64,000 nucleotides of DNA. Origin: Methylophilus rhizosphaerae. GTDB taxonomy: Bacteria > Pseudomonadota > Gammaproteobacteria > Burkholderiales > Methylophilaceae. The number at the start of each line of letters is the position of its first letter. The first letter of the stretch is position 1. The notes beneath the pieces were generated by a model. The model worked only from the letters and a program-made list of their open reading frames with translations. It searched no databases and was not told where the DNA came from. The stretch lies in the NCBI RefSeq assembly GCF_900100975.1, contig NZ_FNFX01000003.1:62001-126000 (forward strand). Direction: 5' to 3'. A program made the position numbers and the translations under genes. Shown here piece after piece: positions 16,061 through 62,471 of the stretch.

Positions 16061-18037
16061 ATGTTCGACTCTCTCATCCATTTGCTATTGTTGCTCACCA
16101 GCTCGGTATTTGCCGTTGGCTTGTTCCGTATATTGGGATTGCCGGCGATACTGGCTTATTTCATGATTGGTATCGTGCTCGGGCCGCATGCATTGGGTAT
16201 GCTGGAAGATGAAGAGAGCGGGCGCCAGGTCGCCGAGTTCGGCATTGTGTTCCTCATGTTCAGTATCGGCCTGGAGTTCAGCCTGCCCAAGCTGTATGCC
16301 ATGCGTAAAACCCTGTTCGGCCTCGGCGGCGGGCAGGTGATCCTTACCCTGCTGGGCAGCCTGGCGCTGGGCAAGCTGGCAGGGCTAAACCTGGCAACTG
16401 CTTTTATCATAGGCGCGGCGCTGACCATGTCTTCTACCGCCATCGTCTCCAAAATCCTGATGGAGCGCGTAGACCTGAATTCCCGCCATGGCCGCCTGAG
16501 TATAGGCGTGCTGTTGTTCCAGGATCTGGCCGTGATTCCTATCCTGGTCCTGATTCAAACGCTGGGTTCGCACAGCGATAATTGGCTGGATGTGCTCGGC
16601 CTGACGTTACTGAAGTCTTCAATATTGTTGTTCCTGCTGTTCAAGTTCGGCAAGAATATCCTTAACTTCTGGTTTGAGCTGGTGGCCAAGCAGCGTTCGC
16701 GCGAGCTGTTCGTCCTGAATGTGCTGATGGTGACTTTACTGATGTCGGCAGCCACCAATTTTGCCGGCTTGTCCTATGCCCTGGGGGCGTTTGTGGCCGG
16801 GATGCTGATTTCGGAAACCAAATATCGCTACCAGGTGGAGTCTGATATCGCGCCATTCCGCGATATTTTGCTGGGCTTGTTCTTTATCAGCGTCGGCATG
16901 TTACTGGATGCCAGGGTGCTGCTTGAGCATGCCGGGTTGATTGCCTTGTTATTGGGTTTGTTCCTGTTGTTCAAGATGGGGTTGATTGCCCTGCTCACCA
17001 AGTTTTACGGCTTCGAGATGGGGGTAGGCGTGCGTACCGGGATTATCCTGGGGCAGGCCGGCGAATTCAGTTTTGTGGTGCTGGCCCTGGGCCTGCAGAC
17101 CCGGTTGATTGATGGCGAAGCCTTGCAACTGGTATTGTCTGTCGCTGTGCTATCGATGCTGGTGGCACCGTTTATTATCCAGTATAACGGCCGCATTGCG
17201 CGAGCACTGGTGAAAAGCTACACCCGCAACAGCATTAAAGGCGTGGATACCATACAGGAGCATAGCCAGGAGTTGCGAGATCATGTGATTATCTGCGGTT
17301 ACGGACGTAGCGGCCAGTACCTGGGCAGGTTTTTGCGCGAGGAAAACATTCCCTATGTGGCGCTGGATATGGATGCCAGCCGGGTGCAGGAAGCTGCCTC
17401 CGCCGGTGAAAATGTGATTTATGGCGATGCCGGCCGGCGGTCTGTCATGGAGGCTGCTGGCCTGGCGCGTGCCAAAGCCGTCATTATCAGCTATGCCGAA
17501 ACACGCGGTACCATGAAAGTGTTGCATGTCATCCAGGAGCGCCACCCTAACCTGCCGGTGATTGTGCGTACGCATGACGACAGCGAAATGGACGTGTTGC
17601 GCGATGCCGGGGCGGCAGAGGTGGTGCCGGAAATCCTGGAGGGCAGCCTGATGCTGGCCTCACATGCGCTGGTGACCCTGGGCATTCCGTTGAACCGTGT
17701 GGTGAAACGTATCCGCCTGTTCCGCGAAGAGCGCTACAAAATGTTCAAAGGCTATTTCCGTGGTGTCAGTGATGCCGATGCGGTGACGGCTTCCTTGCCA
17801 CAATTGCACTCGGTGGAAATGTATAAAAACTTTTATGCGCATGGCCTGCCATTGAATCAAGTCCCGTTTGAGGATTTTGCCGTGGAAGTAAAACAATTAC
17901 GTCGCCCGAATATGCCGGAGCCGATTGCCCCCAGGCCGGATATCGTGCTGGGTGAAGGTGATGTGCTGGTGCTGCTGGGCAGCAATGCCGCGTTGATCGC
18001 CATGGAAGTCTATTTGATTTCCGGACGCAAACCGTAA
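16061..18037 (+). CDS. Kef-type cation/proton antiporter with RCK domain
   Basis: The 658-residue product has an N-terminal CPA2 exchanger domain of about 12 membrane helices (residues 1-385), including the family motif GAALTMSSTAIVSKIL. A cytosolic TrkA-N domain follows (HVIICGYGRSGQYLGRFL, near residue 410), and then a TrkA-C-like domain near residue 570-655. This is the KefB/KefC/YbaL plan: potassium efflux or monovalent cation/proton exchange gated by nucleotide or glutathione adducts. No KefF or KefG-type ancillary gene is adjacent. The 224-base region upstream holds a GTGTCAG/CTGACAC inverted repeat at 15947-15970. Confidence 0.88.
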   Translation: MFDSLIHLLLLLTSSVFAVGLFRILGLPAILAYFMIGIVLGPHALGMLEDEESGRQVAEFGIVFLMFSIGLEFSLPKLYAMRKTLFGLGGGQVILTLLGSLALGKLAGLNLATAFIIGAALTMSSTAIVSKILMERVDLNSRHGRLSIGVLLFQDLAVIPILVLIQTLGSHSDNWLDVLGLTLLKSSILLFLLFKFGKNILNFWFELVAKQRSRELFVLNVLMVTLLMSAATNFAGLSYALGAFVAGMLISETKYRYQVESDIAPFRDILLGLFFISVGMLLDARVLLEHAGLIALLLGLFLLFKMGLIALLTKFYGFEMGVGVRTGIILGQAGEFSFVVLALGLQTRLIDGEALQLVLSVAVLSMLVAPFIIQYNGRIARALVKSYTRNSIKGVDTIQEHSQELRDHVIICGYGRSGQYLGRFLREENIPYVALDMDASRVQEAASAGENVIYGDAGRRSVMEAAGLARAKAVIISYAETRGTMKVLHVIQERHPNLPVIVRTHDDSEMDVLRDAGAAEVVPEILEGSLMLASHALVTLGIPLNRVVKRIRLFREERYKMFKGYFRGVSDADAVTASLPQLHSVEMYKNFYAHGLPLNQVPFEDFAVEVKQLRRPNMPEPIAPRPDIVLGEGDVLVLLGSNAALIAMEVYLISGRKP

Positions 18038-18115
18038 GACAATATTCCTTTTGCGCCGGATTGGCTGGTCATCACCGGCGAGTCCGGCAATACACAATTT
18101 TCCCGGGTATTCTTT

Positions 18116-19126
18116 ATGGCAAATACTTCAGTGCTGGTAGTAGGTGGCGGCATCGTCGGCTGCCTGACCGCCATGCAATTACGCAAGCAAGGTTATGCGG
18201 TTACAGTGGTTGAACGCAATATCATTGCGGCGCAAACCTCGGGAGAGGCCTCCTGGGCAGGTGCCGGTATCGCCTTCCCCTTACTGCCATGGTTTTACCG
18301 GGATATCGTGAATGAACTGGCACTGGCCGGTGCCCGTGCCTATCCGCAAGTGAGCGCCGAATTATTGGCAGAAACGGGCATTGACCCCGAGTGTATCCGC
18401 AGTGGCATGCTGCTACAGCCACCGTTTGATCTCGAACAAGCGCTGAGCTGGTGTGCACGCTTTGGCCTGGCGGCGGAAAAACAAGGCGAACAGTTACTGA
18501 TCCCGGAAGTGGTACAAATCCGCAATCCCCGCTTGTTGCAAGCCCTGAAAGTGTGGCTGGTCAAACATGGCGTCCAGTTGCGTGAGCAAACGCAATTACT
18601 ACCATTGCAGGAAACACAGTCACCGCTGAGGGGTTGGCAAACCACCACCGGCGAAATGCTGCACGCGGACAAGTTCGTCGTGACTTCAGGTGCATGGAGT
18701 TTTGAATTGCTCAGGCAAACAGCGTTGACGCTGGATATCAAACCCATGCGCGGCCAGATGCTGTTGTACCAAATGACGCCGGAACTCTTGCCACATATTC
18801 TTTATCGGGACGGTTTCTATATGCTGCAACGGCTGGACGGTTATGTACTGGCTGGTAGCAGCCTGGAAGATGTTGGCTTTGATAACGGCACCACTGAAAG
18901 CATGCGCCAGGAGATGCAGGCGAAAGCGGAAGCCATTCTGCCTGCCTTGCGCGGCCAACCTATCGTCAAGCACTGGAGCGGGCTGCGCCCTGGCACGCCG
19001 CATAATATCCCAACCATAGGCCGTCACCCGCAGATTGAGAATTTATACCTGAACACCGGCCATTTTCGTTATGGGGTGACCATGGCACCAGAGTGCGCGC
19101 GGCAGATAGTGGCATTGCTGGAGTAG
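18116..19126 (+). CDS. FAD-dependent amine oxidase, ThiO-like glycine oxidase
   Basis: The 336-residue product is a DAO-family flavoenzyme. The dinucleotide motif VLVVGGGIVGCLTAMQL is at residues 6-22, the substrate-binding middle holds VVTSGAWSFEL, and the C-terminal FAD-contact region reads SGLRPGTPHNIPTIG and NTGHFRYGVTMAPECARQI, the last close to ThiO enzymes. ThiO oxidises glycine to iminoglycine for the thiamine thiazole ring; other DAO amine oxidases remain possible. No other thiamine gene is adjacent. It begins about 80 bases after the Kef gene. Confidence 0.75.
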   Translation: MANTSVLVVGGGIVGCLTAMQLRKQGYAVTVVERNIIAAQTSGEASWAGAGIAFPLLPWFYRDIVNELALAGARAYPQVSAELLAETGIDPECIRSGMLLQPPFDLEQALSWCARFGLAAEKQGEQLLIPEVVQIRNPRLLQALKVWLVKHGVQLREQTQLLPLQETQSPLRGWQTTTGEMLHADKFVVTSGAWSFELLRQTALTLDIKPMRGQMLLYQMTPELLPHILYRDGFYMLQRLDGYVLAGSSLEDVGFDNGTTESMRQEMQAKAEAILPALRGQPIVKHWSGLRPGTPHNIPTIGRHPQIENLYLNTGHFRYGVTMAPECARQIVALLE

Positions 19127-19251
19127 GGGGGAAGGCATTCCTTTGTTTTCCAGGTGGTAGATTAATGTCGTCATTTCTGCGTAGGATGTAGCGCAGATGA
19201 AATCAGGGTTTTCGGCCACCGGTTGGTTGCGCTTCGCAATGGCCTGTGCTG

Positions 19252-19347
19252 CTAGTCGGCCACCCAATCCCCACTCTTCCCGCCACGCTTTTCCAGCATT
19301 CGAACACCTTGTATGGTCATGCCTCTATCCATCGCCTTGCACATATC
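19252..19347 (-). pseudogene. moaC: Displaced 3' end of moaC (host copy)
   Basis: Read on the minus strand, this fragment encodes the last ~31 residues of MoaC in frame, ending [12 protein letters not shown] and a TAG stop at 19252-19254. It matches the 3' end of the intact gene at 26856-27332 with one base change in 89 and a different last codon and stop. It is the original chromosomal moaC tail, cut off when the element integrated. It has no start. Confidence 0.85.
19259..19347. repeat. attL: 89-base direct repeat, left copy
   Basis: It is identical to 26863-26951 except at 19286 (C here, T at 26890). The last 61 bases (19287-19347) are a perfect match and must contain the crossover. Confidence 0.9.
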
Positions 19348-19415
19348 GTATAAGCCGCTTCTTAGCACGTTAAGCTGTTGATTTATATAGAACGGTAAAA
19401 CCCTAAAAACGTATC

Positions 19416-19458
19416 TTGTCCATCAAACGGTTAAATTACTTGGACAGAATTTGGACAG
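19416..19458. repeat. Left integrase arm-type repeats (TTGGACA)
   Basis: Three copies lie 70-110 bases inside attL: an inverted one (TTGTCCA, 19416-19422) and two direct ones (TTGGACAG at 19440 and 19451) spaced by 11 bases, one helical turn. The same motif, again as an 11-base-spaced pair, lies inside the right end at 26733-26751, so these are probably recombinase or excisionase binding sites. Confidence 0.6.
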
Positions 19459-19549
19459 TATCAAAAACTTGATAATGCCATTGGTAGTGTAGCGTCAAGC
19501 TGTGGCGGGAAAATAATAAGGCGAGGGGTGAGAGAGGTATAGACAATAA

Positions 19550-19573
19550 AAAAGCCCCGCAAAGGGGGCTTAC
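19550..19573 (-). terminator. Terminator of the 92-residue element gene
   Basis: On the minus strand an AAGCCCC/GGGGCTT stem is followed by a T-run, about 20-40 bases after the stop of the gene at 19595-19873. Confidence 0.75.
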
Positions 19574-19594
19574 GTTCGTATAAGAGGGTGTCTG

Positions 19595-19873
19595 TTAGGT
19601 CGTCTCTATAACTGCATGCAATTGGCTGAGTAAAGCACGTTCACGGCTAGATAATTCCCACCCCAAACCCTGGCAAAACTCGCCAGCCTTTACAACCAGG
19701 TCATCAGTTAAAGGATCAAACGGATCGGCGGCCCATACGCGGTTAAACCACTCAAGCATAACTCGTTCAGTCTCAGATTGGCATTTTTCAAAGACTGGCC
19801 CCACTCCAGTGGCGTCTACTGATTGCGCCATAACAATCAGGTCGTCTACTCGTGTAATATCTAATTCAGCCAT
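19595..19873 (-). CDS. Unknown 92-residue acidic protein of the element
   Basis: A small acidic protein I do not recognise (begins MAELDITRVDDLIVMAQ). It has a predicted mostly helical make-up, one CQSE and one FCQGLGW cysteine segment, and no signal peptide or membrane helix. The gene looks real: a Shine-Dalgarno (AAGGGAG) lies 8 bases before the ATG and an intrinsic terminator follows. It is the leftmost gene of the element, transcribed towards attL, the position where satellites and islands often carry accessory genes. Confidence 0.65.
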   Translation of the reverse strand: MAELDITRVDDLIVMAQSVDATGVGPVFEKCQSETERVMLEWFNRVWAADPFDPLTDDLVVKAGEFCQGLGWELSSRERALLSQLHAVIETT

Positions 19874-20241
19874 GGTTAAAACTCCCTTGTAGTTTCGATT
19901 GTGGTTAGGCGGTTTGGGTGTTCCCGCACCCTTGCCGCCGCATTTTGTTGACGAAGTATCAACACTGAAATTATATAACAGTTTAATGGTGTTATTTAAA
20001 AATATTGTTTTAAATCAATAACTTGAATTCATGAAGACAAGTTTTCCCAGAAGTGGTTGACACCTTTCCATAGGTAGGCTGGCTTGAATTGGTTGGTGCG
20101 AATAGGGTAGGGGGTACCCCGGGAGGGGGTGGGACCACGAGGGTGACATGGGTGGCGTACCCTTATGTACTGCGTTTATCGCGCCCCTATTTTTTAAACC
20201 GTATGTACTTGTAAATACCAATATTTGATGGGGGCGAAAGA
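19874..20241. other. Intergenic region with divergent promoters of two element genes
   Basis: A 368-base region without a convincing gene, between divergent genes. The part next to the left gene is AT-rich; the middle (20101-20160) is strongly G-rich on the plus strand and holds a perfect 10-base palindrome (GGGGTACCCC, 20111-20120). A 68-codon minus frame here has no ribosome site and odd composition and is not called. Confidence 0.5.
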
Positions 20242-20655
20242 ATGAAAAAGCTACCTAAAAACTTTCGGAAAGTTAATAAACGATGTTTTTATGTATTCTG
20301 TCCAATATGCAAAGAAATCGTTTTGTATCGTAGATTAATCTCACATAATAATTCTAAACACTTAAAGTATTCGGTTGGACATTTATACAAAACATTGCAT
20401 GTTTTACTTGAGACGGAGCCTGAGAAATGGGTTGCAAACATAGCTACTAAAAAAGGGCCGTTAAATGATGCGGTAAGAAAATCCAGGATTTATATTGATT
20501 CTATTAATGAGAATTATAAAAAATTTATTTTCAAAGCAACCCAAGTAGAAATTGAAAATCACCCCCCAAATCAGAATCGAAGGGGGGAATGTCACCAATT
20601 ATTCTTAAAGCTGACAAACCGATTTTTGATAAATCAACGCAAAGAGCAACTATGA
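20242..20655 (+). CDS. Unknown 137-residue protein with C2H2-like zinc finger (element cargo)
   Basis: A basic protein, visibly more AT-rich in its codons (AAA, AAT, TTT, ATA) than the chromosome and than the rest of the element. Residues C20, C23, H35 and H40 form a C-x2-C-x11-H-x4-H pattern (CPICKEIVLYRRLISH), a C2H2-type finger, followed by a helical, lysine-rich body. A G-rich stretch 8-12 bases before the ATG could bind the ribosome weakly. It runs against the replication operon, in the accessory half of the element, so it may be a later acquisition. Function unknown; nucleic-acid binding is inferred only from the finger and the charge. Confidence 0.6.
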   Translation: MKKLPKNFRKVNKRCFYVFCPICKEIVLYRRLISHNNSKHLKYSVGHLYKTLHVLLETEPEKWVANIATKKGPLNDAVRKSRIYIDSINENYKKFIFKATQVEIENHPPNQNRRGECHQLFLKLTNRFLINQRKEQL

Positions 20656-20777
20656 ATGCTACAAAATATGCGAAGTAAAAAGAAACCATTAAGCAAATCG
20701 GAAATCAAGGCGAAACCGCTCGCGCAAAAACCAATGTCGGAATAAGACGGCAGCGTTCATGAAGGAGGCTTTCAAAT

Positions 20778-20906
20778 ATGCAAGTTTTTCCATTCGATCA
20801 AGTGAAAGTGCCGGAAGAGATCAAACGGCAGTTGGGAAAACCTCGTCCGTCCCCACCGATGAAACAGCCGGTGTACCCGGACAAGCCGAAAAAGGGAAAA
20901 CGTTAA
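20778..20906 (+). CDS. Small Pro/Lys-rich protein, 42 residues
   Basis: A short frame starting MQVFPFDQVKVPEEIKRQ and ending in a proline- and lysine-rich tail (KPKKGKR). It is supported by the best ribosome site in this part of the element, AAGGAGG at 20762-20768, 9 bases before the ATG. A longer overlapping frame from 20759 starts on top of that site and has none of its own, so I prefer this one. A 25-codon frame just upstream (20668-20745) encodes a similar Lys/Pro-rich peptide but lacks a clear ribosome site. No homologue recognised. Confidence 0.45.
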   Translation: MQVFPFDQVKVPEEIKRQLGKPRPSPPMKQPVYPDKPKKGKR

Positions 20907-20966
20907 AATCCAAAGGCGCAGGCTTTGAAGTCCGCCCGGAAATCTCATCCTGGTGGAACGGCCTCT

Positions 20967-21281
20967 TTACTTCCTACTTCTGAACTTGCTAGCGAATAAA
21001 GATTCTGTGACGTTGGTACGGTGGGCGTTCCAGCCAGCCATAAACCCTCTAGCTTCCTCTTCAGATTCAAAAATGCCTGCTTCACTAGTGTGAGGGAACC
21101 CGTCGATAAACTCTTCCATTTCCACATGCCAGCGGTCATGCCATTTTGGCTCCCTGTCCGAGAGTATGAAAGCAATTTGCTCGGAGGATAAATGTCCATC
21201 CCCATCGCCGTAGGTTGTTAAATCGCAAGGTTTGACTGGTGGGGTGTAAACAACTCTTTTTGCTATTGCGGTTGGGTGCAT
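20967..21281 (-). CDS. Unknown 104-residue protein downstream of the M41-like peptidase gene
   Basis: A soluble protein of mixed charge, rich in aromatic residues and histidine (DREPKWHDRWHVEMEEF; ARGFMAGWNAHR). I recognise no family. An AGGAG lies 11 bases before the ATG, and the start is only 14 bases after the stop of the M41-like gene, so the two are co-transcribed. Frames in the other phases here are shorter and lack ribosome sites. Confidence 0.6.
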   Translation of the reverse strand: MHPTAIAKRVVYTPPVKPCDLTTYGDGDGHLSSEQIAFILSDREPKWHDRWHVEMEEFIDGFPHTSEAGIFESEEEARGFMAGWNAHRTNVTESLFASKFRSRK

Positions 21282-21295
21282 ACGGTAATGATCTC

Positions 21296-22165
21296 CTATA
21301 GTGTTACGTTGACGAATTTGATATCTGATTTACTAAGTTCTGCGATGCCTCCTGGGGACAGCCTCGCTTGTTTATATGCGGTAACGACCTCTTCAGTTGA
21401 TATCGGTCGCTCGGGGTACACGTTAAATTTAAGCATTAGCCATGCAACATCGTCCGGGAATCCTGGAACGTCCGATAGTTCTACCGTGTTACCGTGGTTT
21501 AGTGTTTTCTGTTGCTCTTTTACGAATTTCTGAATCTGGTGCATATGGTCATAGCTGATAAACCCATCCTCCATGCGTCTATGCTTCAGCATATAAACTG
21601 CCGTGGCTCTTATAGTCGACCACCATCTTTTGTCCTTAAACGCATCCGCTACTATATGGGCCGCTTCTTCTAAAAGAAGGCTAACACCATCGTCATCAAA
21701 GATTTTTCCCTTGTATTTAATAGCGAGTGGGTGCACAAAGCCGTTTGGCGCAGGTTGCTCGGCATAGGGTAAATACTTTGCAATCGTATAAGCTGTTTTC
21801 ATGTCGTTATCGCAATCAGGGCTGACCTTAAATCCAGTAACGCAAAACTCAAAATAATCAGTCCCAACATTTCCTAGCATTGACAGCCACTTTCCGCACG
21901 GGCCATTTTCCACCTCGACCGCGCCATAGCAATCAGTATCGCCCATTTGATAAGGACGGGTTGATACGCGACCGCCTACTAATTTTCGCCCTTGCAGCAC
22001 TTCGAAATAAACATGTATTGCCTCATGAATCGCAGTCATAACTTGGTAGGCTGCTGCAGTTTGCGTTATCCCGATTGCCCGATCATGCGCTAGGCTGCAG
22101 GACAATTGCGAGCGCATTAATTGCTGCCAGTCTGTTGAAGTTTCGTTCATCTGCTGTTGTTCCAT
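21296..22165 (-). CDS. Free-standing M41 (FtsH-like) zinc peptidase domain protein
   Basis: The 289-residue product has the zinc motif HEAIH (H47, E48, H51) in an IHEAIHVYFEVLQGRKL context, then about 70 residues later SPDCDNDMKTAYTIAKYL, which lines up with the NDL-x-x-AT-x-x-A segment that gives FtsH its third ligand (D121 here). There is no AAA+ module, signal peptide or membrane helix, so only a peptidase domain plus an unrelated C-terminal half is present. The start directly follows the upstream stop (TGAATG) and has an AAGGAGC site. It may be an active protease acting on phage or host proteins, or a catalytic relic; the ligands being intact favours activity. Confidence 0.65.
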   Translation of the reverse strand: MEQQQMNETSTDWQQLMRSQLSCSLAHDRAIGITQTAAAYQVMTAIHEAIHVYFEVLQGRKLVGGRVSTRPYQMGDTDCYGAVEVENGPCGKWLSMLGNVGTDYFEFCVTGFKVSPDCDNDMKTAYTIAKYLPYAEQPAPNGFVHPLAIKYKGKIFDDDGVSLLLEEAAHIVADAFKDKRWWSTIRATAVYMLKHRRMEDGFISYDHMHQIQKFVKEQQKTLNHGNTVELSDVPGFPDDVAWLMLKFNVYPERPISTEEVVTAYKQARLSPGGIAELSKSDIKFVNVTL

Positions 22166-22462
22166 TCATCTGCTCCTTTGCCAGTAACTAGTGGCACCTG
22201 TTTTATGTTCGACCCAGCCTGCATGTTTCAGCGCTGCTGCCATCAACTCGCGAGGGACACCAAATGTAGCTGCAATCCGACCTAGCTGTTGGGGTTCCCA
22301 TCTTTCGGGCAAAGGTTGTAACCGATGCCACATAACAAACCTGTCAGCCAGTTGAATAACTTTTTCGGATACCACGGGGGCATCGTTTGACGGTGTTATG
22401 GTTTTACGTACGTCCGTTTCGGTGTTTTCTAGGCGTTTTTTGAAATCGTGTATTAGTGTCAT
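22166..22462 (-). CDS. Unknown 98-residue protein, possible winged helix
   Basis: I start at the ATG at 22462, which has a strong Shine-Dalgarno (AGAGGA) 5 bases away; the open frame extends upstream to 22600 but through the iteron region and without a ribosome site. The C-terminal half (LGRIAATFGVPRELMAAALKHAGW then a TSYWQR strand) looks like a helix-turn-helix with a wing. It is first of three genes after the iterons, coupled to the M41-like gene. The first iteron touches its ribosome site, so binding there could repress it. Confidence 0.55.
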   Translation of the reverse strand: MTLIHDFKKRLENTETDVRKTITPSNDAPVVSEKVIQLADRFVMWHRLQPLPERWEPQQLGRIAATFGVPRELMAAALKHAGWVEHKTGATSYWQRSR

Positions 22463-22464
22463 GG

Positions 22465-22725
22465 TTTCCTCTGTGCATATGCACGGAGATCTGTGCAGCT
22501 CTAGCCCAATACTGGCACGGGTTCCAGCGATATGCACGGAATGCACGGATAAAATCAACAAATCGCTAGCGTTTGTTTTTGGCATATATTTGTAGCCCAA
22601 AAAAATTTTTATCTTCCGATTTGAAAATATATGTGTTCATCTGTGCAGTCGCCTTGAAACCCTTGTATTTACTGGCTTTGCGCTGCACAGAACATCTGTG
22701 CAACATCCGTGCACTACTGTGCAGC
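22465..22725. repeat. Iteron cluster, candidate replication origin of the element
   Basis: Ten copies of the heptamer C(T/C)GTGCA or its complement lie in 253 bases: plus-strand copies at 22471, 22491, 22641, 22696, 22707, 22717 and minus-strand copies at 22480, 22533, 22542, 22684. The extended form is ATC(T/C)GTGCA. Spacing in the runs is 9-12 bases, near one helical turn. The two groups flank an AT-rich stretch (22550-22640). Iterons beside an AT-rich unwinding zone, immediately after a primase-helicase gene, are the usual build of a plasmid or P4-type origin. The last copy overlaps the primase stop. Confidence 0.7.
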
Positions 22726-25083
22726 TTCCCAATCAATCTCACCACCACACACATCTTCGAAAGCTGCCCGACATTGATCTATGGGTGGTAACTCAAACCC
22801 TCGTTTCCGATTGTTCGAAGTGCCTTGCTGCTTTGTCGTGAGTAGCGGGCAATGAGTTTTAAGAGTGATAACAAAATCCCTCAATGATGGTAGCCTTACG
22901 GCTACCCCGATTGACCGTGCCCATTCGATACAGTCTGAAAACAACACATCGGAAGAAACCCAGCCACTCCAATCTAGCGCCGTCTTGGTCGGACGTGCAT
23001 CCGTTAAACGGTCTAACCACCACTTAGGAACCACATCGAGAGATGCAAGCTTTTGGCGCATCAATTCAGAGGACTTAGGACGCTCTCTAACCTCAAAGTC
23101 GGTTAGGTCATGGTGTTGCAAATCAAAAGCTAATGCCTCAAGCCCGCCGCCGTTTATTTCTGCGTCCAGCGCCCTCCAGTATGCGAAATCCCCCTTCCTC
23201 GCCTCTGAAAGTCTCAACACGAATTTTCGACGGTCATCCTCTTCAACGTATGCAGCGTGGGTGTTATTTGATGCTGCAATAATTCGGTGGTAACTAGTTA
23301 TCTGCCGCCCGGGTTGAAATTTCACATTAATTTGAAGGCGTGATTCGGTTTCTACTGCTTTGAGGATGTTTGCGGCTCGACGGTCTCCACTAAAAAACGC
23401 TTCATCGGCAAAAACCACAAGTGAACTTTCCAAAGCCTCGTTAAAGGTTCCAGTTAAAGCCGCATCGGACTGCAAGTGCAAGAAGTGATGGGCATACAAC
23501 CCACCAACAATCTTTGCGGCGAATGTCCCTTTGCCTGTACCTTGTCCCCCTAAGAGCAAAATTGATACGCCGGGCTTCTCAGCAGGCTTCTGGATTAGGT
23601 GGGCCATCCACCCCCAAAGATAATTAAAGTACTCCGTCGAACCGGCGCAAACGATGTCCTTGATAAAGGATTTAATCAATGGGTAACTACCCTGCTGGGA
23701 GGTTACTGACAACCCTCGAAAAATATTTAAATAGCCTGGCGTAGTGCCCGAAGGGTTCAATTCCACGCCATAAAACATATTGGTCTGGGGTGCCCTCCAC
23801 CATGACCGAAACTCTTTAGCTGAATCTGCTTGGGGGTTTGATGCGGCAATAGCGCGCTGAATTAAAAAGCCGCCATCATCACGAGAATAAATGTTTAAGG
23901 GTTTAAGAGTGCTGGCCTCTTTGGCCTGCTCTAAATCGACGATTCCAACCTTAGAACCAAGTGTAATGAGTCCAAAACGAGCGAGGCCGCTTAGTTTCTC
24001 AGTTGCAGTGCCAGGGCGCAGCCAGCCGTTTTCTGTTGCACGCCTAAATAGTGACCCAATCCCTAAAAATGCCTCACCGTTTTTATACCTTGTGCTGGTA
24101 CCTACAAGATAACAAGCCCACTCGCTGTCGTTATGCCCTCTATTCGCTCCGGCGGGCTTGCTTGCAACATCGTCTAAAATCTCTCTTGAAACGGTTTCTG
24201 GCCAATCATTAACAACCACCAGCGAGGCTAACGGCATACCTAATTGATAGAAACTGTCGCGGTCGGGTATACCATCAGGCCATGCAGCTCGCGCCGCGGA
24301 CAACACCATTTCGCGGTTTTCTTTTGTGTATGGGAGAGTGTGAATTGTTTGTTTTCCCAGCACCTCTCCAGGGGGAAACAGGGCCGCTATGTGTCGCGGG
24401 ATTTCACCCATTGGAGCTTCATCATTAATCGTAGAATTAGCCACTCCTAGCGGCAAACTCAAGCCGTTTATGATTTGGTCGATTGAGTATCTTGGTAATT
24501 CGAGATTAGATTCAACCATTCGCACAAGGAACGGTGTACCTTTTTGATGATAAAACCCCGGTAGCCTTAACACACGTGGTAAGTCTTTTACCGCACGATC
24601 AGTTTCGTATTTATCCGCAATTGCAGTTTGAATCTCCGTAAATCTACTAAGCGGAAAAGAGTCGTCTACAAGCCAATAAACATGGTAGTTACCTGGGCTA
24701 CTCTTAATAATAACGTGTGGTTTAAGAACAAGAAGCGGCTCCAATGGTGCACCGTCAGTGTCTGCAAATATGGCGCGAACGCGAGTAATGTCACGGCTTT
24801 GTTGCCCTCCTTCGTTGATTACAATAAATACACCTGCACCGGCATGGTTTAACTCTATTAAAGGTTTTAAGGAGTCAGGGAAGTTGGAGACTTTGAGATT
24901 TCTCGATAGAGCGAGGTTTTGAGGTTTATGGTCGTCAAACGTCCGTGTATGAAACTCTCTAGCCTGCGGTGCCAAAATGGATAAAAATTTGCAGGCTTCA
25001 GCCGTGTCTACTGAGGGTGGGGCAACGTCGTAATGAGATGAGGCTATTGTGGCAGCAGTAGGTGCGTTTGTGGTATAATTCAT
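22714..25083 (-). CDS. Replication protein: AEP primase fused to SF3 (D5-like) helicase
   Basis: The 789-residue product has an N-terminal archaeo-eukaryotic primase domain of the RepB-primase type: the metal motif FADTDG near residue 110, the SSPGNYHVYW motif, and DLPRVLRLPGF near residue 180. A linker of PriCT type follows. Then comes a helicase core with Walker A GGQGTGKGT (near residue 508), Walker B LVVFADEAFF, sensor IIAASNN and an arginine DRRKFVLR; the C-terminal part resembles the D5/poxvirus winged region. This corresponds to the role of the P4 alpha protein: origin binding, unwinding and priming. It starts after a leader hairpin and ends in the iterons. Confidence 0.88.
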   Translation of the reverse strand: MNYTTNAPTAATIASSHYDVAPPSVDTAEACKFLSILAPQAREFHTRTFDDHKPQNLALSRNLKVSNFPDSLKPLIELNHAGAGVFIVINEGGQQSRDITRVRAIFADTDGAPLEPLLVLKPHVIIKSSPGNYHVYWLVDDSFPLSRFTEIQTAIADKYETDRAVKDLPRVLRLPGFYHQKGTPFLVRMVESNLELPRYSIDQIINGLSLPLGVANSTINDEAPMGEIPRHIAALFPPGEVLGKQTIHTLPYTKENREMVLSAARAAWPDGIPDRDSFYQLGMPLASLVVVNDWPETVSREILDDVASKPAGANRGHNDSEWACYLVGTSTRYKNGEAFLGIGSLFRRATENGWLRPGTATEKLSGLARFGLITLGSKVGIVDLEQAKEASTLKPLNIYSRDDGGFLIQRAIAASNPQADSAKEFRSWWRAPQTNMFYGVELNPSGTTPGYLNIFRGLSVTSQQGSYPLIKSFIKDIVCAGSTEYFNYLWGWMAHLIQKPAEKPGVSILLLGGQGTGKGTFAAKIVGGLYAHHFLHLQSDAALTGTFNEALESSLVVFADEAFFSGDRRAANILKAVETESRLQINVKFQPGRQITSYHRIIAASNNTHAAYVEEDDRRKFVLRLSEARKGDFAYWRALDAEINGGGLEALAFDLQHHDLTDFEVRERPKSSELMRQKLASLDVVPKWWLDRLTDARPTKTALDWSGWVSSDVLFSDCIEWARSIGVAVRLPSLRDFVITLKTHCPLLTTKQQGTSNNRKRGFELPPIDQCRAAFEDVCGGEIDWEAAQ

Positions 25084-25098
25084 CCTGGATAATTCCCT

Positions 25099-25121
25099 TG
25101 GTCGGCTCTGCCGACCTTTTT
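25099..25121 (+). terminator. Hairpin with T-run in the leader of the primase gene
   Basis: A perfect 7-base stem (GGTCGGC/GCCGACC, three-base loop) is followed by five T on the plus strand. No plus-strand gene ends here. On the minus strand the same hairpin sits in the mRNA between the 37-residue gene and the primase, 15-35 bases before the primase ATG, where it could act on translation or on antisense transcription. Confidence 0.6.
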
Positions 25122-25125
25122 ATTT

Positions 25126-25239
25126 CTAATACAGATCTGTGTCTGATTCTTCTGGGCTAAATGCGCTGTATTCGGCGTTAACCTCTGCAATAACTTCTTG
25201 CAATAAATCTATCAGAGCTTGAAAGTCGGCATCAGTCAT
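25126..25239 (-). CDS. Small acidic protein, 37 residues, coupled to alpA
   Basis: The frame starts at 25239 with an ATG that shares its A with the alpA stop (TGATG), typical of translational coupling, and ends at TAG 25126-25128 just before the primase leader hairpin. The product (MTDADFQALIDLLQEV...) is strongly acidic and probably an amphipathic helix. No homologue recognised. It may be a small regulatory partner of AlpA or of the primase; this is inference from position only. Confidence 0.5.
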   Translation of the reverse strand: MTDADFQALIDLLQEVIAEVNAEYSAFSPEESDTDLY

Positions 25240-25478
25240 CACTTGCGGGATGAGGCTGGCGTATGAGTATGTCTTGACGAGTTTAGATACGCTTTTAAGT
25301 CATCAACTTTGTATCGGATAGCATTGCCAAGCCTGTAATAGCTGGGGCCTACTCCTTTTGTACGCCAGTAATGAAGCGTCGACCTGGGGATGGGTGTTTG
25401 AGTGCCACCGATAAATACGGCGGTTTGCGCTGTTGTGAGCAGGTCTGAATCTGAAAATAAAGTGCGCTGGGGTTCCAT
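25239..25478 (-). CDS. AlpA-like helix-turn-helix regulator / excisionase
   Basis: The 79-residue product is a MerR-like DNA-binding domain of the AlpA/excisionase type: LLTTAQTAVFIGG, then IPRSTLHYWRTKGVGPSYYRLGNAIRYKVDDLKAYL, the usual order of recognition helix and wing. In P4-type satellites the AlpA homologue controls integrase expression and excision. An AAGGAGA site lies 8 bases before the ATG. The promoter at 25647-25675 leaves a leader of roughly 160 bases. First gene of the replication operon. Confidence 0.88.
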   Translation of the reverse strand: MEPQRTLFSDSDLLTTAQTAVFIGGTQTPIPRSTLHYWRTKGVGPSYYRLGNAIRYKVDDLKAYLNSSRHTHTPASSRK

Positions 25479-25646
25479 ACGCAGTCTCCTTGATGAAGGT
25501 TTATAAACGCTTGATAGCGATTACTCTGCGTACAGCCGGGCAAATAAGGCGGGTTATTTCGGTCTTGTCACGATTGGGGCTAGTAGTATTTAATGGTCTT
25601 CGAGATACCGAGCCAAGCTAAAAATGAACCTACATCCAATGTAACC

Positions 25647-25675
25647 AAGATAGCATACTCTGTCCAATTTGTCAA
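25647..25675 (-). promoter_or_regulatory. Promoter of the alpA-primase operon with embedded TTGGACA site
   Basis: On the minus strand TTGACA (25675-25670), a 17-base spacer and TATCTT (25652-25647). The spacer contains TTGGACAG, the same motif as the arm-type repeats at both element ends, so the protein that binds the ends probably also represses this promoter. Confidence 0.65.
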
Positions 25676-25735
25676 GTTGGGGGAGGTTGTAACTTATTGA
25701 ATACAAAGGTTTTACAAGTATACAACCTTGGGGCT

Positions 25736-26719
25736 TTAACCGATCTTCTGGGCTAGGTCTTCGGCTTTCGGGTGATAATATCTTGCAAGCATTTGCACAT
25801 TTTTATGTCCTGTTACTGCTGCTAACTCGATAAGGTTAGGGAGTTTTTCCGATAGCCTAGTAGTCGCTGTATGTCTGAGATCATGAAACCGCACGTTAAC
25901 CAGCTCCGCCCGTTTCACTCCACGCTGGAAACAATATTCCATTGCAGACCATTTAATTGGAAACACCAAACCTCCAATACTGCGAGGGAGTGTGGTTAAT
26001 TCACTTATGGCTCTCTCAGATAAAGGCACTGTGCGTGATGTTCCGTTCTTTGTGTCTGGTAAAAATGCTGTGCGTTTTATTAAATCAACATAGCGCCATT
26101 CAAGGCCTAACAACTCGCCCCGCCGCATTGCGGTTTCTAATGCGACAATAACCAGGGGGCGCATGTAAATATTCCTGTTTTTAATCGGGCGTAACGCCTC
26201 AAGCAATCGCTTTTCTTCTGCCGCGTCCAATACACGATTTCGTCCTGGGGGCATAGATGGCTTTCTGATAGCCGCAACCGGGTTAATTATTGCGTAACGC
26301 CACTCCTTGATACAGTAATTGAAAACTGACGATAACGCGGCCAAATCGCGTATTACCGTATTGGGCCTACACGTCTTAAGCCTCTCGTCCCGATACTCTG
26401 CCATAACTTTTGGCGTTACGTTTGCAAGCATCATCTGCCCCATGCGTAACCGTTGCACTGCTTTTAGTTTTGCAATTTCGGCGAGATACCCCTTATGGTT
26501 TGGGCTTACCTCTTTCATGTAGAGGTCAAGAATTTCTGAGAATGTGACTTGTTCGGCGGGTGAGCGGCTTACATAAATCCCTCTATCCATTTCGGATTCG
26601 ATACTACGCGCCCACTGTTCCGCGCCTGCACGTGTTCCAAATGATTTAACTTCGGGAGGGAACCCCTTACGAGTAATACGAGCTTGCCAACGCTCGCCAC
26701 GCTTTCTGATTGACGCCAT
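25736..26719 (-). CDS. Tyrosine recombinase (phage-type integrase)
   Basis: The 327-residue product has an N-terminal arm-binding domain (IRKRGERWQARITRKGF), a SAM-like core-binding domain (residues ~57-150) and the catalytic domain with every catalytic residue: R199 (TAMRRGEL), H279 and R282 (FHDLRH), H305 (VTGHKN) and the nucleophile Y314 (RYYHP). It lies beside attR and is transcribed away from it, with two TTGGACA-type sites (26733, 26744) just upstream of its start. It should catalyse integration into the moaC 3' end. The frame is full length and intact. Confidence 0.93.
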   Translation of the reverse strand: MASIRKRGERWQARITRKGFPPEVKSFGTRAGAEQWARSIESEMDRGIYVSRSPAEQVTFSEILDLYMKEVSPNHKGYLAEIAKLKAVQRLRMGQMMLANVTPKVMAEYRDERLKTCRPNTVIRDLAALSSVFNYCIKEWRYAIINPVAAIRKPSMPPGRNRVLDAAEEKRLLEALRPIKNRNIYMRPLVIVALETAMRRGELLGLEWRYVDLIKRTAFLPDTKNGTSRTVPLSERAISELTTLPRSIGGLVFPIKWSAMEYCFQRGVKRAELVNVRFHDLRHTATTRLSEKLPNLIELAAVTGHKNVQMLARYYHPKAEDLAQKIG

Positions 26720-26732
26720 CTTTGTACCTCAC

Positions 26733-26751
26733 TTGGACAAAAGATGGACAA
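26733..26751. repeat. Right integrase arm-type repeats
   Basis: TTGGACAA (26733-26740) and ATGGACAA (26744-26751), 11 bases apart, sit between the integrase start and attR. They repeat the arrangement at 19440-19458 and could also allow the recombinase to control its own promoter. Confidence 0.6.
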
Positions 26752-26855
26752 AACGTGTTTTTAGGTTAGTTCTATGCTGCTCTACACCGTGCCGTACTAA
26801 TAAAAATTCGGCTCATTCGTGAGTACCTTAAAGGGCATGAAATCCTTATACGGCT

Positions 26856-27332
26856 TTACTCCGCCACCCAATCCCCACTCTTCCCGCCATGCTTTTCCAG
26901 CATTCGAACACCTTGTATGGTCATGCCTCTATCCATCGCCTTGCACATATCATAAATCGTCAGCAGGCCGACCTGCACGGCGGTCAAGGCTTCCATTTCC
27001 ACGCCGGTTTGACCGGTGGTTTCGCATTGCACCTGGCAGGTGATTTTGTGCGCCGTCTCGTCTGCCATAAAACTGACATCCACCCGGCTTAGGCTAAGCG
27101 GGTGGCAGAGCGGGACCAGGTCACTGGTTTTTTTGCTGGCCTGGATTGCTGCGATACGGGCGATGCCCAGCACATCACCTTTTTTGGCGTTGCCTTGCAG
27201 GATGGTTTGCAGCGTGGCTGCTTGCATGGTGATGTAGCCCTCGGCAATGGCAATGCGTTTGCTGTGTGGCTTATCGCCGATATCGACCATATGGGCATGG
27301 CCCTGGGCGTTGAAATGCGTTAATCCGGACAT
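26856..27332 (-). CDS. moaC: Cyclic pyranopterin monophosphate synthase (moaC with element-supplied 3' end)
   Basis: From the ATG at 27332 the product is 158 residues and starts [18 protein letters not shown], as MoaC proteins do; an upstream ATG at 27353 would add seven residues. Motifs [11 protein letters not shown] and [23 protein letters not shown] are intact. MoaC turns the MoaA product into cyclic pyranopterin monophosphate in molybdenum cofactor synthesis. The last ~32 codons come from the element's attR, giving [12 protein letters not shown] and TAA in place of the host [12 protein letters not shown] and TAG (see 19252-19347). The protein should stay functional, since these changes are at the extreme tail. 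Confidence 0.95.
26863..26951. repeat. attR: 89-base direct repeat, right copy, inside moaC
   Basis: It matches 19259-19347 with one mismatch (26890) and a perfect 61-base stretch (26891-26951). It lies wholly within the moaC coding region. Confidence 0.9.
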
Positions 27333-27450
27333 GGTGAAATATGATGAACTCAAGCGATGAAGCCGTTATCATAACAAGTTTGGGTCGACGTTCTGTGCTG
27401 ATGCAATAATAATGTCGATTTAAAGCAATTGCTTTGGGTTTTCTGGGTAC

Positions 27451-29001
27451 ATGGCATTTAATTTTCTAAATCATTCTGGCCGTTGCAGTGGCTGGGCGCA
27501 ATGGCTGCTGGCATGCATGTTGGTCATGCAGCCAGGGTGGCCATTGCTTGCGGAGGCAGTGGGGCAGTTTTCCGGTAAGCCTTATGAGCCAGACCTGGAT
27601 TTAACGCTGCCGGCAGATTCTTCCAACCAGTTGCCAGAGCTGGGGGATGCCTCGCAAACCGTGCTATCCGCACGTGATGAAGAGAAAATTGCCAACCAGA
27701 TACTGAAGCAAGTGGCGACCAGTGAAGATGTGCTGGATGATGCCGAAATCACCGATTACCTGCAGGCGCTGGGCAAGCGTTTGGGCGCCAGCAGTCCCGA
27801 CAAGCAGCAGAAATTCCGCTTTTTTGTGGTGCAGGACAAAACCATCAACGCGTTTGCCATGCCAGGCGGCGTGATTGGGGTACATACGGGTTTATTTGTT
27901 TCCGCCAATAGCGAATCCGAACTGGCCAGTGTGCTGGGGCACGAGATCGGGCACGTGACGCAACATCACCTGGCCCGTATGCTGGCGTCACAAAAGTACG
28001 ACATGTTCAAGAATATCGCAGCGACCGCGCTGGCATTGCTGGTGGCGCGGTCGAACCCGGACGCGGCCATGGGCGCGATGGCAACCGCTTCCGCTGCCGG
28101 CATCCAGCGGCAACTGGATTACACCCGTGAACATGAACGCGAAGCAGATCGCGTCGGCCTGACTATCCTGCAGGATGCCGGATTTGATGTGCGCGCCATG
28201 CCGGCATTTTTTACTACCTTGCAACGTGCCACACGCTTTGCCGATGGCAATATGCCCAGCTACTTGCGCACCCACCCGCTGACCAGCGAGCGGATTGCCG
28301 ATATTGGTAACCGGGTGCAGAATCTGCCTTACAAGCAGGTGACCGAGAGTCCGGCATTTTCACTGATGCGGGCAAAAATACGCGCGCTACAGGGCGGGCC
28401 GTCACAGATGGTGGAAGAGTTTAAACACAATATCGCCGAAGGGCGTTTCCAGAACGAGCAGGCCGAGCATTATGGCCTGGCCTACGCCTATTTGCGGGCC
28501 AGCCAGGCAAAAAATGCCCAGCAGGAAGTGCAGTGGCTGGAGCAGCATGGCATGGTGAGCCCCTATCTTGTGACATTGAAAGCGGTCACCCTGGCCAAAC
28601 TGGGCCAGGTGCCGGAAGCGCAGGCACAATTCCTGGAAGGCCTGCAGCGTTACCCTCAGCACCGCATGCTGGCGCAAGGACAGGCCGAGTCGCTGATACG
28701 CAGTAACCAGTGGGCGCAAGCGATCACGTTTATCCAGAAGCAGGTGGTTAATTTTCCGGAAGACCCCAAATTCTACGACTGGCTGGCGGAGGCATATCAG
28801 GCGCAAGGCAAGCAGATGTTGCGACATCAGGCCCTGGGCGAAGCCTATGTGCGCAAATATGATTTGGCGCGCGCCGTAGAGCAGTTCGATATTGCCAGCA
28901 AGGCCAAAGATGGTGATTTTTATCTGCAATCCCGGGTGGAAGCGCGATTAAAAGCACTCCGGTTGCAACAATCTCTGGAAAAAGATGATGATAAAGGGTA
29001 A
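27451..29001 (+). CDS. Periplasmic M48 metalloprotease with TPR-like tail (BepA/YfgC type)
   Basis: The 516-residue product has a signal peptide (WLLACMLVMQPGWPLLAEA), an M48 peptidase domain with zinc motif LGHEIGHVTQHHLAR near residue 165, the downstream ligand segment REHEREADRVG, and a C-terminal half of TPR-like helices (residues ~320-510). BepA-type proteins help assemble or degrade outer membrane proteins such as LptD. Divergent from moaC, with the SoxYZ-like gene 16 bases after its stop, probably in one operon. Confidence 0.88.
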   Translation: MAFNFLNHSGRCSGWAQWLLACMLVMQPGWPLLAEAVGQFSGKPYEPDLDLTLPADSSNQLPELGDASQTVLSARDEEKIANQILKQVATSEDVLDDAEITDYLQALGKRLGASSPDKQQKFRFFVVQDKTINAFAMPGGVIGVHTGLFVSANSESELASVLGHEIGHVTQHHLARMLASQKYDMFKNIAATALALLVARSNPDAAMGAMATASAAGIQRQLDYTREHEREADRVGLTILQDAGFDVRAMPAFFTTLQRATRFADGNMPSYLRTHPLTSERIADIGNRVQNLPYKQVTESPAFSLMRAKIRALQGGPSQMVEEFKHNIAEGRFQNEQAEHYGLAYAYLRASQAKNAQQEVQWLEQHGMVSPYLVTLKAVTLAKLGQVPEAQAQFLEGLQRYPQHRMLAQGQAESLIRSNQWAQAITFIQKQVVNFPEDPKFYDWLAEAYQAQGKQMLRHQALGEAYVRKYDLARAVEQFDIASKAKDGDFYLQSRVEARLKALRLQQSLEKDDDKG

Positions 29002-61910: not shown

Positions 61911-62471
61911 ATGGCGGCACAGCGCATTTTAGGCATAGACCCAGGTTTAAGAGTCACGGGCTTCGGTATTATTGAGGCGGTTGATGGCAAACTTGGCTAT
62001 GTCACCAGCGGCGTGATTAAAACAGCCGCGGCAAAAAAAAGTGCAGATGGCGAGTCGGAAAAAGAGGCGCTGCCCGAGCGCCTGAAAGTCATTCTGGATG
62101 GCTTGTTTGAAGTCATTGAAACTTACCAGCCGACACAAGTCGCGATTGAAAAAGTGTTCGTCAACGTAAACCCGCAATCCACATTGTTGCTGGGGCAGGC
62201 CAGGGGGGCCGCCATTTCAGCGGCCGTAATCAAACAGTTATCCGTTGCCGAATATACTGCCTTGCAGGTCAAGCAATCCGTTGTGGGTAACGGTCATGCG
62301 CAAAAGGAGCAGGTGCAGGAAATGGTCAAGCGCTTGTTGAAACTGCCCGCTAACCCCAGCCCGGATTCTGCCGATGCGCTGGCGTGTGCCATTTGCCATG
62401 CGCATGGCGGGCAAGGCCTGGGCGCGTTGGCAACCACCGGCTTCAGGGTAAGAAATGGAAGATTGATATGA
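61911..62471 (+). CDS. ruvC: Holliday junction resolvase RuvC
   Basis: The 186-residue product has the catalytic acids in [14 protein letters not shown] (D near residue 8), [13 protein letters not shown] (E) and [14 protein letters not shown] (two D). It cuts Holliday junctions in partnership with RuvAB. The stop overlaps the ruvA start by four bases (ATGA). Confidence 0.97.

Follow-up and report, generated by a model that had tools for sequence, protein, structure and literature searches.

A small integrative element in the 3′ end of moaC of Methylophilus rhizosphaerae and its relation to other moaC-directed integrases

The moaC locus and its integrative element

The window analyzed here (64,000 nucleotides, positions 62,001 to 126,000 of contig NZ_FNFX01000003.1 of Methylophilus rhizosphaerae) harbors a 7.6-kb block at window positions 19259-26951 that is inserted in the 3′ end of moaC and bounded by an 89-nt direct repeat. 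The two copies of this 89-nt core, 19259-19347 and 26863-26951, are identical at 88 of 89 positions, belong to a longer direct repeat (19253-19350 and 26857-26954, 96% over 98 nt), and are the only two in the 2.76-Mb genome. The copy at 26863..26951 lies inside the 3′ end of the present moaC gene (26856..27353, reverse strand; Pfam MoaC, 7.6e-56), which owes its last codons to the element. The distal copy at 19259..19347 is the original end of moaC, displaced by the insertion, and runs on to a stop codon of its own (19252-19254). This displaced tail reads GDWVAD where the present gene reads GDWVAE and has a His-to-Arg change, as expected for a tail released from selection. The G+C content is 0.40-0.48 in blocks inside the element and 0.50-0.57 in the sampled flanks, and no tRNA gene occurs in the window. 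With direct-repeat ends, a rebuilt target gene, and an empty site in relatives, the block bears the marks of a tyrosine-recombinase site-specific integrative element, and its sequence identifies it as one that rebuilds the 3′ end of moaC.

Inside the element, the reverse strand encodes (i) a tyrosine recombinase, or integrase, of a moaC-directed clade (25736..26719; Pfam Phage_integrase 4.3e-25, alignment, and tree), (ii) a 79-aa AlpA-like protein with an HTH_17 helix-turn-helix (HTH) domain (25239..25478; Pfam 28.7 bits, cut-off 27), and (iii) a primase-helicase (22714..25083; RepB_primase 1.2e-13 and DUF5906 9.6e-19). The integrase alignment keeps R199, K224, H279, R282, H305, and Y314, which we take to be the catalytic residues of a tyrosine recombinase. 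Structural, packaging, relaxase, and conjugation families have no match among the tested window proteins (Pfam, PHROGs, PADLOC, NCBIfam), and the PHROG structural category is matched neither by nine window open reading frames (ORFs) nor by ten selected proteins of other moaC elements. An earlier note, made by a model from the letters of the window, had proposed a target at the moaC 3′ end, not in a tRNA gene, a recombinase and a primase-helicase inside, and no recognizable genes for virions or transfer, all of which these searches bear out.

The same note had predicted an empty site in relatives. Of 21 congeners, 14 carry moaC and a ThiO-like neighbor in a single locus that lacks any match to the window integrase and has one copy of the moaC tail, and the joined window flanks align to the congener locus L042 straight through the junction (1999 columns, 77%). 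The gap between moaC and ThiO varies from 38 to 894 bp, such that the 14 empty congeners do not represent one uniform empty site. An extra tail match at L047 was considered as a scar but proved to be a chance match of 13 nt. In G105 alone among the congeners the site is seen to be occupied: its locus L063 carries the same element in the same gene order, one cargo slot excepted. The other six of the 21 are counted as neither empty nor filled; four of them are loci at contig ends (G120, G139, G087, and G145), and the flank of the remaining two (G130 and G048) contains no match to ThiO.

The two carriers are not neighbors in a quick tree of ThiO, M48, and MoaC, some rows of which are gap-rich; G105 pairs with G087 (1.000) and the window genome with G066 (0.924). 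G066 has an empty site, and G087 lacks the 289-aa gene of the element on a contig that ends about 640 bp past moaC. The sequence that follows moaC in G087 (L043; L280 1-640) matches neither the G105 element nor the G105 ThiO flank and is perhaps another insertion. This patchy distribution fits mobility, to which losses could also contribute. The moaC tails agree at 88 of 89 positions within each carrier and at 77-79 of 89 between the two carrier genomes. As the element is the same by gene order and the tails are alike only within a carrier, its tail matches its own host, which may reflect gene conversion or recent arrival from the same species. Fourfold-site agreement between the window and G105 is 66-76% for the primase gene, the 144-aa ORF, and the 289-aa gene, compared with 35% for ThiO, 46% for M48, and 46% for the integrase gene. 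Horizontal exchange of this inner module is only suggested by these values, because the MoaC body also reaches 63%.

Integrase clade and target stretch

Integrase matches at 1e-20 occur in 40 of 150 genomes of the family, and moaC adjoins the integrase in 11 of the 30 loci listed, from 11 genomes. Among GTDB genome contigs, 475 encode a relative, and 10 of the best 80 have moaC beside the integrase; these ten are also the ten best by E-value. They include Ralstonia soli, two Paraburkholderia, one Methylotenera (taken as the same record as L064), and bins labeled Burkholderiaceae, Ramlibacter, Proteobacteria, and Chitinophaga, the last of which is taken for a binning error. In a 53-row integrase tree, the 19 moaC-adjacent rows fall on one side of a single branch and the 34 other rows on the opposite side, with branch support of 94/91 and recovery in 94% of 200 bootstrap trees. 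The moaC-adjacent integrases from Methylophilaceae, Burkholderiaceae, and others thus appear to form one clade with good, not complete, support in a sample that favors relatives of the query. A switch of target from tRNA genes to moaC is likely, because in 7 of 16 non-moaC integrase loci scanned the 200 bp upstream of the integrase include a gene for tRNA-Val or tRNA-Arg.

In the 13 elements with both copies (one of which, L065/L066, is split over two contigs and paired by assumption), the homologous block always takes in positions +3 to +73, counted from the DMCKA Asp codon. No block begins later than +3 or stops short of +73, and the stretch common to all is 71 nt. By this measure, the island re-supplies approximately the last 30 codons of moaC. 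This stretch encodes residues that are catalytic in Escherichia coli MoaC (Asp128 and Lys131), and in our reading the integrase, like those directed to tRNA genes, targets DNA that protein function keeps constant. The Lys of DMCKA has been lost from the displaced tail of Paraburkholderia elongata (L092). The two tails differ by 8-16% in six elements (L064, L067, L070, L092, L093, and L094), so that insertion there yields a chimeric moaC.

The clade, judged from sequence, moves elements with differing cargo. Twelve bounded moaC elements span approximately 4.7 to 13.7 kb, with ends set by hand from the repeats, and scans of selected proteins find other replication modules among moaC elements: AAA_25 and PriCT-1 with a true Phage_AlpA in L067, AAA_25 and PriCT-2 in L093, and D5_N with DUF5906 in L097. 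Defense-like cargo includes PDC-S46 (L070), a type I specificity subunit with PDC-M04A (L095), SRA-HNH (L069), and a TIR-like protein (L091); for L091 and L095 no element ends were located, and their cargo is placed only near moaC.

Primase-helicase and candidate origin

The primase-helicase matches solved primase and PrimPol chains and is likely the replication initiator. It scores 24.5 bits against the NCBIfam model "phage/plasmid primase, P4 family," whose cut-off is 108.7. As a single query, the protein finds no relative in genome contigs or viral contigs; a two-row profile picks up N-terminal matches of 40-45% in five viral contigs.

A candidate replication origin (22464..22730) lies behind the primase-helicase gene. 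It consists of ten TGCACRG sites (22471-22723), five on each side of an AT-rich core (22550-22640, 73% AT), and the rest of the 64 kb holds 15 more. With a trailing A, 9 of 11 copies fall in the candidate origin. The ten observed sites compare with a first-order Markov mean of 0.16 and a maximum of 2 in 2000. Repeats beside an initiator gene together with an AT-rich core are the pattern of an iteron-type replicon, here seen in sequence only. Similarly, the origin of Staphylococcus aureus pathogenicity islands (SaPIs) has repeated sites near an AT-rich core that match the initiator, and the candidate origin resembles that of SaPI-type phage-inducible chromosomal islands (PICIs) in this arrangement.

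The corresponding region of G105 (6174-6754 of L063) has no TGCACRG; GTGGYCA, a motif picked after looking, occurs there seven times at six places, of ten in the 14-kb locus. Identity between the two primases is 72% over residues 1-240, 87% over 241-480, 95% over 481-694, and 34% over 695-789. When the two elements are aligned as DNA, the alignment breaks off between 22468 and 22997, and because this break covers both the primase end and the repeats, the two changed as one block. The alignment thus points to a linked swap of iterons and primase C-terminus, and residues 695-789 are proposed as the origin-binding part.

Nature of the element and its remaining genes

P4-like satellites carry psu, delta, and sid. 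No such family occurs among the window proteins (Pfam, PHROGs, NCBIfam), which places the element outside the P4-like satellites. It differs from both these and SaPI-type PICIs in having no psu/delta/sid-like or terS/ppi-like match (gene names partly from PMC10803314). The element resembles P4 in joining primase and helicase in one initiator (PMC7145576), and the replication genes of P4 and SaPI drive replication once expressed (same source).

The closest plan is that of the phage-inducible chromosomal minimalist islands (PICMIs) of Vibrionaceae, which have an int, alpA, and prim core, measure 6-8 kb, and are without capsid or packaging genes (PMC10803314). Shared traits are the int/AlpA-like/prim plan, the size, the lack of capsid or packaging genes, the location at the end of a conserved gene with a regulatory or housekeeping role, and extra genes without an assigned function. 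Unlike PICMIs, the element lies in another bacterial class, has a RepB-primase/DUF5906 primase and no helper known here, and uses moaC, not fis, integration next to which is the PICMI hallmark (PMC10803314). Because this hallmark fails, the element is not filed under PICMI, although it may still work like one. The earlier suggestion of a P4-like satellite or replicating island pointed to the right region but not to the nearer plan. Its AlpA assignment is approximately right only, as the protein passes HTH_17 but not Phage_AlpA.

Other islands share single traits. SGI1 (Salmonella genomic island 1) in trmE and the dusA islands (PMC8409611) resemble it in that a recombinase directs the island to the 3′ end of a protein gene that is conserved; they differ in target and gene content and in being mobilized by IncC plasmids. 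Tycheposons and flexible islands of the same bacterial family, Methylophilaceae, are likewise tyrosine recombinase islands, but they start at tRNA genes, and moaC is not mentioned in the part of the source consulted (PMC10872708). As the earlier note had supposed, moaC is not a commonly cited site: no report of it as an attachment site was found in the open literature, most subscription journals lying outside the search. In the parts of the sources consulted, moaC stands at one boundary of a table row for the Cupriavidus metallidurans island CMGI-A without an attachment site (PMC7019866) or is listed merely as a gene (PMC6505155). What is new beyond the earlier note is the integrase clade that uses the moaC site and the candidate origin.

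In our judgment, the element is probably a minimal phage satellite, PICMI/P4/SaPI-like, that would excise, replicate itself, and borrow a helper. Its insertion point falls in the DMCKA-coding stretch near the moaC 3′ end, where the matching tail that it brings rebuilds the gene and the old tail is displaced. The 79-aa HTH protein, which has a weak PHROG match to "excisionase and transcriptional regulator" (0.0014) and is likely an excision factor or switch, would act in both roles. The C-terminal part of the primase-helicase would then bind the iterons, the AT-rich core would open, and the freed circle would replicate, its copies being packaged by a helper, most likely an infecting phage. By sequence, the element combines a moaC-clade integrase, a rebuilt gene, a counterpart in a second species whose close relatives do not show it, and iteron-like repeats behind the primase. 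The satellite reading is preferred because of the direct repeat and rebuilt moaC, the 14 empty congeners, the gene order in G105, the single integrase clade, and the kept catalytic residues; the iteron excess, the linked change of iterons and primase, the PICMI-like plan, and the different primases and defense-like cargo of other moaC elements add to it.

Several observations weigh against the satellite reading. Excision, replication, and packaging are inferred from sequence; no helper was found, and no cos/pac site or virion packaging was seen. Phage_portal, the only family used in this search, has no match in the own genome, where a virulent helper would not show. None of the best 80 viral contigs with a related integrase contains moaC. 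The 79-aa protein does not match Pfam Phage_AlpA, which leaves its AlpA assignment weak. The G105 motif was chosen post hoc, and the core beside its repeats is only 53-57% AT. Finally, the conserved non-coding stretch at 19874..20241 may be a promoter or a site for packaging or transfer; taken whole, it matches nothing in phages, and its 22-nt core occurs in no viral contig.

This stretch could hold an origin of transfer (oriT), as in an oriT-only integrative mobilizable element, which would excise and replicate and then travel with a conjugative plasmid or integrative conjugative element by means of a borrowed relaxase. The size, the integrase, and the absence of own transfer genes fit that definition (PMC11389934); we regard it as unlikely, given a replication module of the kind common to phages and satellites and no relaxase family match among the tested window proteins (Pfam, NCBIfam). 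Alternatively, the element may be a replicating island or an integrating plasmid that lacks a helper of its own and spreads by chance routes such as general transduction or transformation. This reading would agree with a self-sufficient primase and proposed origin, with plasmids of 7.6-9.8 kb that carry DUF5906-type relatives spanning approximately one third to one half of the primase protein, and with no packaging function being seen; the compact gene order kept in two species and the int/alpA/prim plan of PICMIs make it quite unlikely. A decayed prophage that lost its structural genes is highly improbable: the primase and integrase do have phage relatives, but the main frames are open, the catalytic residues are kept, the gene order recurs in a second species, and no structural-gene remnant appears among the ORFs tested (PHROGs).

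A broader proposal, held tentatively and with some doubt, is that the element represents an undescribed, widespread satellite family in Betaproteobacteria. The family would be defined by the moaC-directed integrase clade, which would read the hardly drifting DNA of the MoaC active-site motif; replication modules and defense or other cargo would be exchanged freely, and the origin and the origin-binding end of the initiator would be swapped as one cassette, perhaps to escape incompatibility. moaC would join the protein-gene ends that mobile elements use as docking sites, and one recombinase lineage would predict the location of small islands in several Betaproteobacteria. An integrase beside moaC is a simple key with which to search for satellites not yet named and for the cargo they carry, and with two copies in Methylophilaceae the matching of initiator and iterons is directly testable.

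The remaining genes are less well assigned. Of 187 family genomes, only the two carriers encode the 289-aa protein (21296..22165, reverse strand), and it occurs in 1 of 399 genomes of the order. It is possibly a metallopeptidase: an HEAIH and a later ND motif are in register with FtsH-type M41 peptidases, at a profile probability of 4%. A search of the own genome for the M41 family returns one gene only, elsewhere. The protein has no match in phages, plasmids, viral contigs, or solved structures, and its structure model is unusable (mean predicted local distance difference test score of 32). A 98-aa protein (22166..22462, reverse; listed as the 144-aa ORF) shows continuous conservation with G105 from an inner ATG, and a 104-aa protein (20967..21281, reverse) is 48% identical there over 104 aa. 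The 79-aa HTH protein is only 30% identical to the G105 protein in the same place. At the distal end, a 92-aa protein (19595..19873, reverse) has 65% identity in G105. Between the genes for the 104-aa and 92-aa proteins lies what appears to be a slot for exchangeable cargo. It holds a forward-strand gene for a 137-aa protein (20242..20655) that matches no family (Pfam, PHROGs, NCBIfam) and has no counterpart in the element of G105, where two other genes take its place.

The non-coding stretch is identical to G105 in 284 of 355 ungapped columns (L063 3429-3795) and is better conserved than the neighboring 92-aa gene (185 of 279 nt); its 22-nt core occurs once in each of the two carriers among 187 family genomes. 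Rfam gives no match at gathering score from 17000 to 29000, promoter-like sites are fewer than in shuffles, and terminator-like sites are about as numerous.

Among the other moaC elements, L068, L070, and L071 have a second tyrosine recombinase of 409-411 aa near the distal repeat. These three also contain an AAA ATPase and an outer-membrane-like protein and are perhaps composites of two elements.

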